Shown piece after piece: positions 3,200-10,697 of a DNA stretch of 59,446 nt. The number at the start of each line of letters is the position of its first letter. The stretch's first letter is position 1. The position numbers were made by a program, and so were the translations under genes. The notes under the pieces were generated by a model, which had not been told where the DNA came from, made no database searches, and worked only from the letters and a program-made list of their open reading frames with translations. This DNA comes from Dehalococcoidia bacterium (lineage in GTDB: Bacteria; Chloroflexota; Dehalococcoidia; Lucifugimonadales; UBA3495): the NCBI GenBank assembly GCA_022825745.1, contig JAJDWF010000035.1:1-59446 (forward strand), read 5' to 3'.

Positions 3200-3625
3200 T
3201 CAGGGGCTGATGCCCTCGCCTTCCAGAAAAGCAACCAGTCGCTCAGCGGTAGCCGGCAAGTCCCGCAGCTGGCACTCCCAAACGGTAAGCACGGCCCAGC
3301 CCTGTTCCTCAAGCGAGACAACGTTGCGAGCGTCGCGGGCGTGGTTGCGACCCAGCTTCGCAATCCAGTATTCCCGGTTGGTGGCGGGGATACGCACTCG
3401 CGGGCAACCGTCGTGGCGATGCCAGAAGCAGCCGTTGACGAATACCACCTTGCACCGCGACGGGAAAACCAAATCGGGCCGACCCGGCAGGTCAGCCCGA
3501 TGCAAACGATACCGATAACCGAGGCCGTGCAACAACCGCCTCACCTGCATCTCCGGCTTCATGCCCTTCGACTTGACCCGCGCCATGATCCGGCTGCGGG
3601 CTTCGGGCGATACGGTGTCAGCCAT
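3200..3625 (-). CDS. vsr: Very short patch repair (Vsr) endonuclease
   Basis: Vsr nicks DNA 5' of the T in T:G mismatches that arise by deamination of 5-methylcytosine made by a partner methyltransferase. The 141-residue protein matches the family in length. It keeps SRIMARVKSKGMKPE (E25), GRPDLVFP (catalytic D51), FVNGCFWHRHDGC (C66, H69, H71, C74: metal and active site) and WAVLTVWECQL near the C-terminus. It lies 13 bases after the restriction enzyme gene and on the same strand as the methyltransferase it presumably protects against. Confidence 0.93.
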   Translation of the reverse strand: MADTVSPEARSRIMARVKSKGMKPEMQVRRLLHGLGYRYRLHRADLPGRPDLVFPSRCKVVFVNGCFWHRHDGCPRVRIPATNREYWIAKLGRNHARDARNVVSLEEQGWAVLTVWECQLRDLPATAERLVAFLEGEGISP

Positions 3626-3638
3626 AGCAGAACGCCCG

Positions 3639-4736
3639 TCAGACCGCCAGCACTCTATGGTTTTGATTCTTAATCACCCGTCGATGGGATAGTTCCGCGT
3701 CTCGATTGTTCCCGTCTTGAATTGATCCGTTGTTGAGTTGCACCGAATCTGGATTGATTCCTACGCCCCGATTGTCGCGGTCGCTTCTCACGACTACATA
3801 GTGGAACACCAACTGGCGCGTACCACTACCGGCATTGTAATCAGCATTTCGAGTGTGTCTTCCGATACGGAAATGCAAGTGTGGATTGCCAGTAACGAAA
3901 ACTGTGGAATTGAAAGTGACCTGAGCAGCTATAGTCTCACCCACGCCGTATGTCTGACCTTGAATTGGACGCGAAACTATTTCTATGCTAACAATGCCGG
4001 GTCCCAATAACGTCAACCAATTGCTTTCATACCCAGCAGACCTTAGGATACTGCCTCGCGCCGCCGGAAACGGCTTTCGAATCTGAAAAGAGCGGGCAGA
4101 ACCGCTGACGTCCCGGTATATCCTAAATTGACTACCGTTGGGTTGCCAAGTGAACATATGTGGGCCAGTTTGACTTCCTAAATGCCCCTCAAGATTGTTT
4201 TCTTGATTGCGTGTCCAAGTGTAATCTGCTGGATCGTATGGAGTTGTTGAAACTTCAAAAATCTTGAACCGAAACTTCGCCATATCACGAATCAATACCA
4301 CAGTCCGCAAATTTGGATATTGATTAGTTGCCTCCGCGACTCGGTCATTCCAAATCTGCAAGACCTGATCTCCGGCAGTCTGAATGTCTGCTAAAGGCGC
4401 ATTGTTGCTGAAAGAATATCCTAGGGCATTCCTACCAGAAATGAGCGGTACGCGGGTTTCGGTTATGGGGTTATTGGAACCTATCGTCTTGGCCGACCAA
4501 GCGGTGCTGCCAAGTACGATATCTGCAATACCCAAAGGACTTTTTCTGTGTATGCCGTTGACTGCGGCAGCGAAAATATCGCCCCAATCATCGCCTGACA
4601 AGTCGCTCCTTCCGACCGCGCTCGAATAAACGATGTTGCTTGCGATCGTCTGAATGACGGTGTCGGGAATCTGGCCCAACGGATACGGCGTAGGGTTGCT
4701 CCATCCGCCGCGCAATCTCGGTCCTTGATAGGCCAT
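3639..4736 (-). CDS. Probable type II restriction endonuclease with a C-terminal surface-protein-type beta domain
   Basis: This 365-residue protein is coded directly after, and overlapping, a C5 methyltransferase, where the cognate restriction enzyme is expected. Residues 45-85 hold SGDDWGDIFAAAVNG and GIADIVLGSTAWSAKTI, a plausible PD-(D/E)XK-like core with D72 and K83. Residues 246-355 are different: IVSIEIVSRP, YGVGETIAAQVTFN, NPHLHFRIG and NADYNAGSGTRQLVFHY match the repeat domain of large secreted or cell-surface proteins. The start at 4736 has an ideal GGAGGA site; the longer frame is the overlap with the methyltransferase. Base composition is clearly AT-richer than its surroundings, a sign of transfer. 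The recognition site is unknown. Confidence 0.65.
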   Translation of the reverse strand: MAYQGPRLRGGWSNPTPYPLGQIPDTVIQTIASNIVYSSAVGRSDLSGDDWGDIFAAAVNGIHRKSPLGIADIVLGSTAWSAKTIGSNNPITETRVPLISGRNALGYSFSNNAPLADIQTAGDQVLQIWNDRVAEATNQYPNLRTVVLIRDMAKFRFKIFEVSTTPYDPADYTWTRNQENNLEGHLGSQTGPHMFTWQPNGSQFRIYRDVSGSARSFQIRKPFPAARGSILRSAGYESNWLTLLGPGIVSIEIVSRPIQGQTYGVGETIAAQVTFNSTVFVTGNPHLHFRIGRHTRNADYNAGSGTRQLVFHYVVVRSDRDNRGVGINPDSVQLNNGSIQDGNNRDAELSHRRVIKNQNHRVLAV

Positions 4737-5643
4737 CTTGCACTTCCTCCAAAACTGCCTGCACCATAGGAACGGGAACGGCGTTGCCGGTCTGCTTGCG
4801 GATTTGCTGATAAGTTCCGGGCAGCTCAAACCGCTCCGGGAATCCTTGCAGCCGCAACATTTCTCGGGGCGTCAATCGCCTTTCGCCGTTAACCAGCAGG
4901 TAATTGTACGACGCTCCGGCGCGCAGGGCGCAGGAAAACGGGTGGCTAGACACGTTGCCGCCCTTGTTTTCGTGCCAGATTGATAGGTCGTAGGGGCTTT
5001 CGTGCTTTGCCAACCGCTTCTGGCGTATCGCGTCGCTGGCCATGTAGGTTGCCGGAACTTCTTTTTCCAAAACCTCCGACAGGGGCTGATAGTGACCCAT
5101 CGGGTCGGGCCACTCAAACGGAACAGAATGGTCGAGGAAACCTACGATGATTGTGCGCTCTCGCTTCTGAGGCAGTCCGAAATCAAGGGCGTTGAGAACT
5201 TTCCAGTCGGCGCGGTAGCCCAATTCGTTCAGAGCGGAGATTATCGCTTGCATCGTCCGGCCCCGGTTGTGGGTGGACAGCTGGCGTACGTTCTCTAAAA
5301 CGAACGCCGCCGGTTGTTTGGCGTCGATAATTTCCGCGACGTCGAAAATGAGGTTGCCACGATCATCGTCGAACCCGCGCATATCACCGATGATGCTGAA
5401 CGGTTGGCACGGGAACCCGGCCAGCAAGACGTCGTGGTCGGGTACGGATTCGGGTGCTATTTCGGTGATGTCGCCGCCTGGCTCCATGCCAAAATTCTGC
5501 TGGTAGGCGCGGCGCGCCTCGGCGTCAATGTCGCAGGCGAAGACGCAAGCCATACCTAAATTAGCAGCGGCTATATGAAAGCCACCAATGCCACAGAACA
5601 AATCCGTGAACGTCAGCGACAGCTTGTTGTCCCTATGGGCCAT
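4588..5643 (-). CDS. DNA (cytosine-5-)-methyltransferase
   Basis: It methylates C5 of cytosine within a recognition site and protects the host from the partner nuclease. The 351-residue protein shows the ordered motifs of the family: FTDLFCGIGGFHIA (motif I, SAM binding), GFPCQPFS with the nucleophile C79 (motif IV), FVLENVR (motif VI), RERTIIVGF (motif VIII) and QTGNAVPVPM (motif X). The variable target-recognition region lies between VIII and X. A polar tail of about 60 residues follows motif X and is coded in the 149 bases shared with the restriction gene. The start MAHRDN at 5643 is chosen over an upstream extension that lacks conservation. Confidence 0.93.
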   Translation of the reverse strand: MAHRDNKLSLTFTDLFCGIGGFHIAAANLGMACVFACDIDAEARRAYQQNFGMEPGGDITEIAPESVPDHDVLLAGFPCQPFSIIGDMRGFDDDRGNLIFDVAEIIDAKQPAAFVLENVRQLSTHNRGRTMQAIISALNELGYRADWKVLNALDFGLPQKRERTIIVGFLDHSVPFEWPDPMGHYQPLSEVLEKEVPATYMASDAIRQKRLAKHESPYDLSIWHENKGGNVSSHPFSCALRAGASYNYLLVNGERRLTPREMLRLQGFPERFELPGTYQQIRKQTGNAVPVPMVQAVLEEVQDGLSRTEIARRMEQPYAVSVGPDSRHRHSDDRKQHRLFERGRKERLVRR

Positions 5644-7408: not shown

Positions 7409-9427
7409 CTACACCGCAGTCAGCCACCACCGCGCTTCGCCGGCTCCGCCGCCGCTGACGTTGACCTCCATCCCTTCCAGCAGCCACGCGCCGCCGATGC
7501 CCCGGCTCTCCGCGGCAACCTCCAACACGTCCGACAGCCGGCCTTCCACCACCGCCCGGCGGCTGCCGGCCCCGAGCAAAGGCAGCGTCGCTTCGAGCTG
7601 GGGACGCGGTTGGGAACGCTGCGCCAGCCGCGCCGCCGCCGCACCCCGGGCCGCCGCGTAGTTGTCGGTGTACCGGCAGTTGACCAGCCGGCCGCGTCCG
7701 GTGTCCAGGGGTAGGCCGGCGCCGCCGGATTCGGCACGAACGGCGGTGGAGGTCTGCGTCCGCCAGCAGTGGTTCGCATACAGGTCCAGGCTTTGCAGGT
7801 AGGCCGTATTCTGTCCACTGTTGCGGATGCGCAGCACGTGGCCCCGGCCGGCGATGCCCGACTGCGCCTCGGTGAGCAGCTCGACGGTGAGGTCGTCGGT
7901 AACGTCGTTGCCCATGCCGGCGGCGTCATCCGTCGCGGTGTAATCCACGCCGGCCATGGGCGCAGCGATGTCGTCAATCACGTCCCAGGTGTCCGTGGCC
8001 GCCAGCAATCCGCCGGAGCCGGATTCGCCGCCGCCCGGTATTTCCAGCGCCTCGTTGAGACTCCACACCTGCTGCCGGCCGGCATCCGACGAACGGCGGT
8101 AACGGAAAGTTACCGCGTCCTCCACAACATCCGCCCCGTCGTTCCGCTGGATGGCCGTCGCGTAAGGCCCGTCGCCGTCGGCGGTGTCGGCAATCGTGAA
8201 CCTGGCCAACGACACCGGATTGAGATGGCGGTGAACGTCGGCCCGCCGCGATGCCGCTTCCAGCCGGACGCGACCCAGACCGTCGGCGTAGATCAAGCCG
8301 TGCTCTTCCCGCTGCAACCTACGCAACGCCCGGCCCGCCGACACGTCCCACACCGAGCGCGGCCCTCCCGTCAGCAGCGTCCGCCCATCGTCCAACGCAT
8401 AGTCGCCGGGAACCAGGCCGGCCCAGCCCAGGATCGCCGCCGCCACGTTGCCGGAGCGCATCAGGCCGCCGGCCAGCGCCCGGTGCAAGGGTACGGTGTC
8501 CAGCCGCTGCATCGGGTCGGCGGCGGTGACGCGACACACGCCGGCCTCGTAATCCGGGTTGACGTCGGTGATGCGTCCGCTGAACAGGCTGCGCCCCACG
8601 CCGAATTCGCCCCAACGGTCCTGCGCGTTGCGAAAACCGTGCCACAGGCCGTGCCGGCTCGAGTCCGGCGCATCGGCGATGGCAGTAGCCGACAGGATTT
8701 CCCGCCGCCTCGCGCCCGGTTGGGCCAGTGCGACGGTGTAAACGCGCACGCTGTCCGCGGTCTGCTCAATCTCCAGGTCATACCACGCCCCCGTCTCCAG
8801 CGCGCCGCCGTCGGACAGTCGCGTAACCGTTCGCCCCGACACCCGCTCCAGGATGGTGGCGTCGCTGGCGAACCGCAGGCGCAGGCAGTCGTCCCGGGCG
8901 ACGCACCGCAGCACAAACCCGCCCAGCCCGTTGCTGCCGCGACGGTAGCGCGCCGTCAGCGTCGCCAGCAGGTCGCCCGTATCCAGCAGGGCTACCGCAT
9001 CCGACGGCGGCCAGCCCCTGCCTTGTCCCATCGCCGTTCCGTCCGCCACCACAAAACCGTTGCCGGCGACGCCTGCCACATCCCACTGCTCGCCGCCGTA
9101 CGCCGTTCGGCCATCAAGGTCAACGGACGCCGCACCGCCGGCAGCAAAGTCGTCGTGGATCCGGTTGGCGCGCAGCCACACCGGACGACCCGGCCGCACG
9201 TTGGCGCCCAATGGGCCGCTGCTATTCCCCGGCGTGTACCGATGGTCGTGGTTCCGCAGCGTGATCTCCAGTTCCGCCGGCGGCGCAAACTCCGGCACCG
9301 GCAGCCCGCGCCGGCCCCACCGCCAGCGCAAACCCAGCACGTCGGCGGACACGTCCGAGCCGTCCGCATCCCACGTGCCTGCGTTCGCCCAATCGACCAG
9401 GATTTGCCAGCGAATTCCCGCGATCAT
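7409..9427 (-). CDS. Large phage-like tail/tail-tip protein
   Basis: The 672-residue protein is the last gene of a phage-like morphogenesis cassette. The N-terminus (about 1-95) reads like a baseplate or tail-tip domain that describes segments by range (ELEITLRNHDHRYTPGN, then RPGRPVWLRA). Residues about 95-285 look like a lectin or LamG-type jelly roll (WYDLEIEQTADSVRVYTV). A third part resumes the tail fold (FSGRITDVNPDYEAGVCRV). The C-terminal third is rich in small beta elements. The start codon ATG at 9427 overlaps the preceding stop by one base, so it is translationally coupled. It may bind cell-surface sugars; that is inference from fold. Confidence 0.6.
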   Translation of the reverse strand: MIAGIRWQILVDWANAGTWDADGSDVSADVLGLRWRWGRRGLPVPEFAPPAELEITLRNHDHRYTPGNSSGPLGANVRPGRPVWLRANRIHDDFAAGGAASVDLDGRTAYGGEQWDVAGVAGNGFVVADGTAMGQGRGWPPSDAVALLDTGDLLATLTARYRRGSNGLGGFVLRCVARDDCLRLRFASDATILERVSGRTVTRLSDGGALETGAWYDLEIEQTADSVRVYTVALAQPGARRREILSATAIADAPDSSRHGLWHGFRNAQDRWGEFGVGRSLFSGRITDVNPDYEAGVCRVTAADPMQRLDTVPLHRALAGGLMRSGNVAAAILGWAGLVPGDYALDDGRTLLTGGPRSVWDVSAGRALRRLQREEHGLIYADGLGRVRLEAASRRADVHRHLNPVSLARFTIADTADGDGPYATAIQRNDGADVVEDAVTFRYRRSSDAGRQQVWSLNEALEIPGGGESGSGGLLAATDTWDVIDDIAAPMAGVDYTATDDAAGMGNDVTDDLTVELLTEAQSGIAGRGHVLRIRNSGQNTAYLQSLDLYANHCWRTQTSTAVRAESGGAGLPLDTGRGRLVNCRYTDNYAAARGAAAARLAQRSQPRPQLEATLPLLGAGSRRAVVEGRLSDVLEVAAESRGIGGAWLLEGMEVNVSGGGAGEARWWLTAV

Positions 9428-9852
9428 TACCAAACTCCCAGATCAACCGGCCCGTCCTGCCGGAACGCCGCCTCAAACCGCACCGGCTCGCCGGCCTTGC
9501 TGCTGATGCGGTAGGACAGGCACACGAACCTCCCCGACACCCGGCGCTGGCCCGGCGCGTTGCCCACCGGCCCGTATTCCACCCGCACGGCGCGACCGAC
9601 CACGCCCGACAGCACGGCGTCCGGCCCCATGTCCGGCGTGTCGTCCCAACGCCCGGACAACGTGAACGCCTGCGCAGCCTCCGACCCGGCCACGGTTCGT
9701 ACCGCCGTGTCGTTCACACCGGTAACGTCGTGAGCCGCCAACTCGCGCCCCAGCGGCCCGACGCGCTCCACCCAAGGCGACAGGTCACGCAGCGCGCCGC
9801 CGGCGTCCTCCACCGCCACGTAGCTGTACCCGGCGCTGGCGTATCCGGTCAT
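9427..9852 (-). CDS. Phage-like tail tube protein
   Basis: This 141-residue protein lies between the connector and the tail-tip gene, where a tail tube gene is expected. FTLSGRWDDTPDMGPDAVL, VEYGPVGN and SYRISSKAGEPVRFEAAF resemble the beta-sandwich of small tail tube proteins in siphophages and gene transfer agents. The ATG at 9852 is two bases after the connector's stop codon and follows a G-rich stretch; the longer frame runs into the connector gene and is not credible. The family call rests on pattern and position, so it is moderate. Confidence 0.6.
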   Translation of the reverse strand: MTGYASAGYSYVAVEDAGGALRDLSPWVERVGPLGRELAAHDVTGVNDTAVRTVAGSEAAQAFTLSGRWDDTPDMGPDAVLSGVVGRAVRVEYGPVGNAPGQRRVSGRFVCLSYRISSKAGEPVRFEAAFRQDGPVDLGVW

Positions 9853-9854
9853 GC

Positions 9855-10697
9855 TCACACCCCCAGCACGGCGTTGCGGCGGCGGTACGGGGCCAGCAGC
9901 GTGCGGACCGTGGGGGAGACGCCGCCAACGTCTCCCCCATCGCCCTCCGGCAGCGCGAAAGGTCCCGCCAACCTCTCGCGCCACCAGACGGCGGCCTGCA
10001 GCAGGCACGCTTCTGATACCCCCTTCGGGTACCGGTGAACCAGTATTGCCGACCCTGCGGCGTGCGCTGACCGCTCAGTTCCGTTGACCCCGCGCTGCGC
10101 CGTCAGCGTCAACTCACCCTGCCCATCGTCAGCTACGCCAGCGACGTACATCTGCTCGTCGTCGATGCGGACGGTGTGGCCGGCCGACAGCGTGGCGCCG
10201 GCGCCTGGAGCGGACACGGCAACCGTTTCATCGTCAGCCGCCGTGTTTCCATCCGTCCGCAAAGCGGTATCCTCCCGCACGTCGCCGTAGCCCCAAACCC
10301 CGCTCACCACCACGCCGGCCCGGCTCAGCGGGAACCGGCGACGCGCCCCCGACGCCAGCATGATGCGGGTGTAGGGTCGGCCGCCCGGCTCCGTGGGCGC
10401 GGCGTTCAGCGGATACAGCAGCCAGTCCGCCGCCGGCCAGCCGACCCACTCGCCCGAAGCTTCCCGCACGCGCACCTCGCTGGCCACAACCAGGTCCGGC
10501 ACCGTCAGCGACGCTTTGCCCGTACCGTCGAAACGACGCTCCCCGCGCATCGCGCCGAACTGCCGGCCGCAGTAGCCGTCAATCCAGCGGGACGCCGCCT
10601 CCAGCAGCGTCAGCAGCCGCCCGTCGTGAGCGTCATCGGGCGCGTTCAAAACCGATGCCGATTTCAACGTCGCCAGGTCCGCGTAAGCATTTGTCAT
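9855..10697 (-). CDS. Phage gp6-like head-tail connector protein
   Basis: The 280-residue protein starts with YADLATLKSASVL, then LLTLLEAASRWIDGYCGRQF, the helical start of gp6/HK97-type connectors that form a ring between head and tail. It ends with SEACLLQAAVWWRERL, a conserved helix in the same family. The middle (about 150-225) holds an extra beta-rich section (VRIDDEQMYVAGV and TLTAQRGVNGT) also seen in tailed-phage adaptor proteins. GGAGAAAG precedes the start. It lies downstream of the capsid gene and is coupled to the tail genes. Confidence 0.75.
   Translation of the reverse strand: MTNAYADLATLKSASVLNAPDDAHDGRLLTLLEAASRWIDGYCGRQFGAMRGERRFDGTGKASLTVPDLVVASEVRVREASGEWVGWPAADWLLYPLNAAPTEPGGRPYTRIMLASGARRRFPLSRAGVVVSGVWGYGDVREDTALRTDGNTAADDETVAVSAPGAGATLSAGHTVRIDDEQMYVAGVADDGQGELTLTAQRGVNGTERSAHAAGSAILVHRYPKGVSEACLLQAAVWWRERLAGPFALPEGDGGDVGGVSPTVRTLLAPYRRRNAVLGV

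Follow-up and report, generated by a model that had tools for sequence, protein, structure and literature searches.

The window analysed here, the whole 59,446-nucleotide (nt) stretch of Dehalococcoidia bacterium contig JAJDWF010000035.1, encodes a protein in which a predicted restriction endonuclease is joined to an immunoglobulin-like (Ig-like) tail of the type repeated in surface proteins. The domain fusion is real: among the 82 members of this predicted family of restriction enzymes, 8 have it. The preliminary description of this DNA had proposed a restriction-enzyme-like half followed by a beta domain of surface-protein type, and this is supported; the protein has no evident signal peptide. 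To judge from its charge and a missing loop, the most likely role of the tail is that of a cytoplasmic accessory module contacting the DNA backbone. The complete proposal, a predicted PD-(D/E)XK restriction endonuclease whose surface-repeat-homologous Ig-like tail serves as an intracellular accessory DNA-holding module, is put forward tentatively, with slightly under an even chance of being correct.

The open reading frame (ORF) of the fusion starts with ATG and encodes 365 amino acids (aa) plus a stop (Table 1). The surface-repeat pattern pointed out earlier in its C-terminal part is genuine: the quoted motifs are present (YGVGETIAAQ from residue 263, DAELSH from residue 346) and the homology is above chance. 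On contig C116 of the same genome, a 1151-aa ORF contains six regions matching residues ~245-362, with expect values (E) of 2.9e-11 to 3.3e-4. Tail matches were found in 27 of the 99 genomes searched, its own included, and among the matches listed the tail-bearing open frames other than the window's are 383 to 9728 aa long. The tail shares both sequence homology and an Ig-like fold with surface repeats of the same genus. It differs from them in being a single copy on a nuclease, in lacking the DxDxDG motif and an N-terminal hydrophobic segment, in being more basic on average, and in forming its own clade. N-terminal hydropathy is 1.2 in the fusion protein, compared with 2.1-3.0 in 20 of the 23 other carrier frames; the hydrophobic segment is absent from the remaining three (L076, L079 and one frame of L047).

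The same fusion, which the preliminary description had suggested looking for in homologues, was found in seven other proteins. An assembly join was considered as its source and rejected, because in these seven the tail likewise follows the same N-terminal half. The eight fused rows (P0001, P0026, P0037, P0047, P0048, P0052, P0065 and P0082) are 36-66% identical to each other in the tail and 42-80% in the nuclease half. When 123 domains were placed in a tree (122 alignment columns; many of its forks are unresolved), the tails formed one clade of eight, with a Shimodaira-Hasegawa-like approximate likelihood ratio (SH-aLRT) support of 95.9. The guanine plus cytosine content (GC) of the window tail is 0.49 (third codon positions, GC3, 0.47), close to that of the nuclease half (GC 0.50, GC3 0.51), whereas the surface-type gene of the same genome has a GC of 0.61 and a GC3 of 0.76. 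The separate tail clade, the divergence of the tails and a GC unlike that of the surface gene argue against a recent fusion through recombination with a local surface-protein gene, as had been suggested initially.

Repeated independent fusions were also considered. A quickly built tree of the 82 nuclease halves required four changes of the fused label, two of them forced by well-supported branches. However, a tree holding the fused rows together scored 10.5 log units better and was not rejected by the approximately unbiased (AU) test (p 0.70; 78 rows, leaving out P0080, P0081 and P0083 for divergence and P0082 as too short), and repeated fusion was set aside. A single origin is the simpler reading of these sequences, although it is not proven; the fusion looks old. 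Nuclease-half matches occur in 12 of the 250 genomes of the order. Besides the window's own genome, 10 of the 11 lack the tail, judged by translation or frame length, and L016 is a weak partial match. No tail remnants were found beside unfused genes in 12 loci, nor in a repeat with 17 loci and all filters off, in which both positive controls were found; only three chance-level lines were left (sequence E 5.9-8.5, negative bits). Region searches with the P0001 tail returned only P0002 and P0082, and with the P0065 tail only itself. These region searches are insensitive, since the other fused proteins were not returned either.

The fused tails were compared with 115 surface domains, which remained from 160 hits after removal of the window itself, duplicates and hits below 80 profile positions, and whose loci had been picked as good matches to the window tail or P0048. 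At residues 319-324, 64 of the 115 surface domains have DxDxDG, a typical calcium loop. The three acids are present in 0/8 fused tails, from which a loss of calcium binding is inferred. Position 320 is arginine in 8/8 fused tails vs 20/115 surface domains, and position 323 is acidic in 0/8 vs 71/115. Net charge is positive in seven of the eight fused tails; surface domains average -5.9 per 100 residues, with 15/115 at or above zero. The one-sided p values of this difference (2.2e-5 for whole domains, 2.1e-4 for the core) overstate independence, because the fused rows are relatives in one clade and represent a consistent state, not repeated events.

The nuclease half was assigned the PD-(D/E)XK fold, and its likely catalytic residues are conserved in aligned rows (D72 63/64, S81 63/64, K83 64/64). 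Searches of Pfam, NCBIfam and PADLOC gave no family for the fusion ORF, and the outcome that the preliminary description had named as damaging, a profile match placing the tail in a restriction enzyme family, did not appear. Weak Pfam matches were seen only in single homologues, the best being DUF5877 (9 of 58 members, best E 3.1e-4). A sequence search of solved structures found no convincing relative of this half. Known PD-(D/E)XK type II enzymes (3NDH, which we take to be ThaI, HinP1I, EcoRV and DpnI) align to it at 10-12% identity without a family match; the fusion protein differs from them in the serine at the (D/E) place and in its Ig-like tail. The nuclease half is predicted to represent a family unnamed in these curated libraries. 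The restriction enzyme label, which rests on the fold and the neighbouring genes without a family match, is likewise a prediction. No relative was found in the viral contigs scanned and no match in the plasmid search. In an unannotated phage record from human faeces (MT836739.1), positions 4778-5488 code for a protein related to the nuclease half at 36.6% identity.

Table 1. Features of the fusion gene and its cassette in the window
Feature	Position	Strand	Evidence
Fusion gene, predicted restriction endonuclease + Ig-like tail, 365 aa	3639..4736	-	ORF and translation; same architecture in 7 other proteins
Predicted PD-(D/E)XK nuclease domain, residues 1-242	4011..4736	-	
Likely catalytic stretch D72...S81-x-K83, residues 72-83	4488..4523	-	column conservation; role inferred
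Ig-like tail of surface-repeat type, residues 245-365	3642..4004	-	
DRDNRG, residues 319-324, in place of the DxDxDG loop of surface repeats	3765..3782	-	domain alignment
C5-cytosine DNA methyltransferase, 351 aa	4588..5643	-	PF00145 E 7.8e-83; HhaI methyltransferase E 1.4e-59; start set by comparison with L068
Vsr mismatch endonuclease (vsr), 141 aa, 13 nt after the fusion gene	3200..3625	-	TIGR00632 E 1.1e-43; PF03852 E 3.2e-28

The fusion gene lies in a compact run with vsr and the gene of a C5 methyltransferase, the likely partner of the nuclease. The methyltransferase aligns with HhaI over its whole length, the second half only loosely. The last 149 nt of its gene are also the first 149 nt of the nuclease gene, read in a different frame (window 4588-4736); similar overlaps are found in relatives, for example at L068 9387-9535 and L069 8444-8589. 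A methyltransferase homologue adjoins the nuclease gene in 16 of 17 relatives' loci. The genomes in which relatives have a C5 methyltransferase gene as neighbour bear the titles Chloroflexi, Dehalococcoidia, Opitutia, Oscillibacter, Prevotella and Bacteroidales. The relative at L073 (G610) is without a C5 methyltransferase match, and its large upstream gene by eye resembles another DNA methyltransferase type. Two Prevotella records (L021 2658-4183, L022 5161-6687) have two nuclease-family genes side by side after the methyltransferase.

In a species of the same genus (G002) the same place is flanked by a transporter and an oxidoreductase 94% and 97% identical to those of the window. The cassette itself is less alike (methyltransferase 83%, Vsr 80%, nuclease half 69%), which points either to its rapid evolution or to its replacement in one of the lineages. 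The orthologous G002 nuclease has no tail. A GIY-YIG gene (L068 8181-8822, PF01541 E 9.9e-7) stands between nuclease and vsr in G002 and is absent from the window. Next to the window's cassette, the region 7409-10008 is possibly a prophage or tail-like cluster: gene 9427-10008 matches a phage major tail protein (phrog_10528, E 8.4e-15), and a 674-aa gene in the region is 71% identical in G002.

The roles of methyltransferases, restriction nucleases and Vsr are established for their families. Here the methyltransferase would mark host sites, the nuclease domain would cut unmarked sites, and Vsr would repair T:G mismatches left by 5-methylcytosine deamination. The tail would derive from a repeat of a secreted protein, acquired in a single ancient event, and would have become calcium-independent. 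Its present role would be to clamp the DNA backbone next to the nuclease core, so that the enzyme binds more tightly or stays bound longer. A bolder version is doubtful: in a single domestication, an extracellular Ig repeat dependent on calcium would have become a calcium-free clamp on DNA, or a sensor of invaders, inside the cell, its acidic loop rebuilt with arginines, and the module would then have diversified with its library-unnamed enzyme family.

Several points weigh against a DNA-holding tail. The ten lysine or arginine (K/R) positions compared were chosen after the alignment had been viewed, and while fused tails carry K/R more often than surface domains at 293 (5/8 vs 0/115), 323 (5/8 vs 4/115), 353 (5/8 vs 2/71) and 356 (4/8 vs 0/63), positions 296 and 361 are not enriched. 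The P0048 tail is acidic (-3.3 per 100 residues), the core at 262-341 is net positive in only 5/8 tails, and the basic shift may merely reflect the move from surface to cytoplasm. The tail was undetected in 74/82 rows and is therefore dispensable for basic function. As to the nuclease, serine (S81) occupies the usual (D/E) place of (D/E)XK; SxK and QxK variants of this motif are known. Domain placement in the predicted structure is uncertain (predicted template modelling score, pTM, 0.74), and with Foldseek alone neither model had a match at E <= 0.001.

The chief rivals to DNA contact are subunit joining and the sensing of invader proteins. The tail may instead join subunits. Its Ig-like sheets would pair, and nuclease dimers would form tetramers or act at two sites, like type IIE/IIF enzymes. 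Both DNA binding and multimerisation, the two roles raised in the preliminary description, are possible; the basic residues favour DNA contact, although they are no proof of it, and such gains are not predicted by plain sheet-to-sheet contact. Subunit joining is unlikely. Sensing of an invader (a phage protein or modified DNA backbone) that licenses the nuclease is rather improbable. PMC10853773 and PMC12839542 propose such a role for beta-sandwich domains in DndH and PglZ. Tail-family domains have matches (E 1.4e-16 and 1e-4) to two PHROG families without an assigned function. Tail identity is below nuclease-half identity in 26 of 28 fused pairs, but a part that is merely accessory could show the same faster divergence, relatives that lack the tail and have the same gene neighbours are common, and the conserved Arg320 and fold core suit a fixed partner such as DNA.

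That the tail is a passive rider, a tolerated chance fusion without a function of its own, is clearly improbable: its sporadic occurrence (8/82 rows) and tail identity down to 36% would fit, but 8/8 tails keep an open frame and an Ig core at 36-66% identity, and all share the arginine found in 20/115 surface domains. That the protein is a nuclease toxin like the polymorphic toxins, secreted or displayed on the surface, is extremely improbable, for although tail relatives are mostly in frames with an N-terminal hydrophobic segment (20/23), the fusion protein is without one and its gene lies between methyltransferase and vsr. Its domain order is also reversed: the nuclease half comes first, whereas polymorphic toxins have an N-terminal export region and a C-terminal toxin.

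Among type II enzymes, NaeI, EcoRII and DpnI have an accessory domain that binds DNA, in each case with a fold other than Ig-like; for the fusion tail, DNA contact is a prediction. No description of a type II restriction enzyme that bears an Ig-like domain was found in the open-access literature searched. In PMC10853773 and PMC12839542, the beta-sandwich domains of DndH and BREX PglZ are proposed to bind DNA backbone or invader proteins. As in the fusion protein, a beta-sandwich is there appended to a defence protein; unlike it, DndH and PglZ are large multi-domain proteins, and the likeness drawn here is one of description. The fusion points to a restriction enzyme family that is not named in the curated libraries used, despite relatives adjoining C5 methyltransferase genes. 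It offers a testable case of a cell-surface domain taken over by a defence enzyme for intracellular use, the tail-less relatives serving as natural controls.
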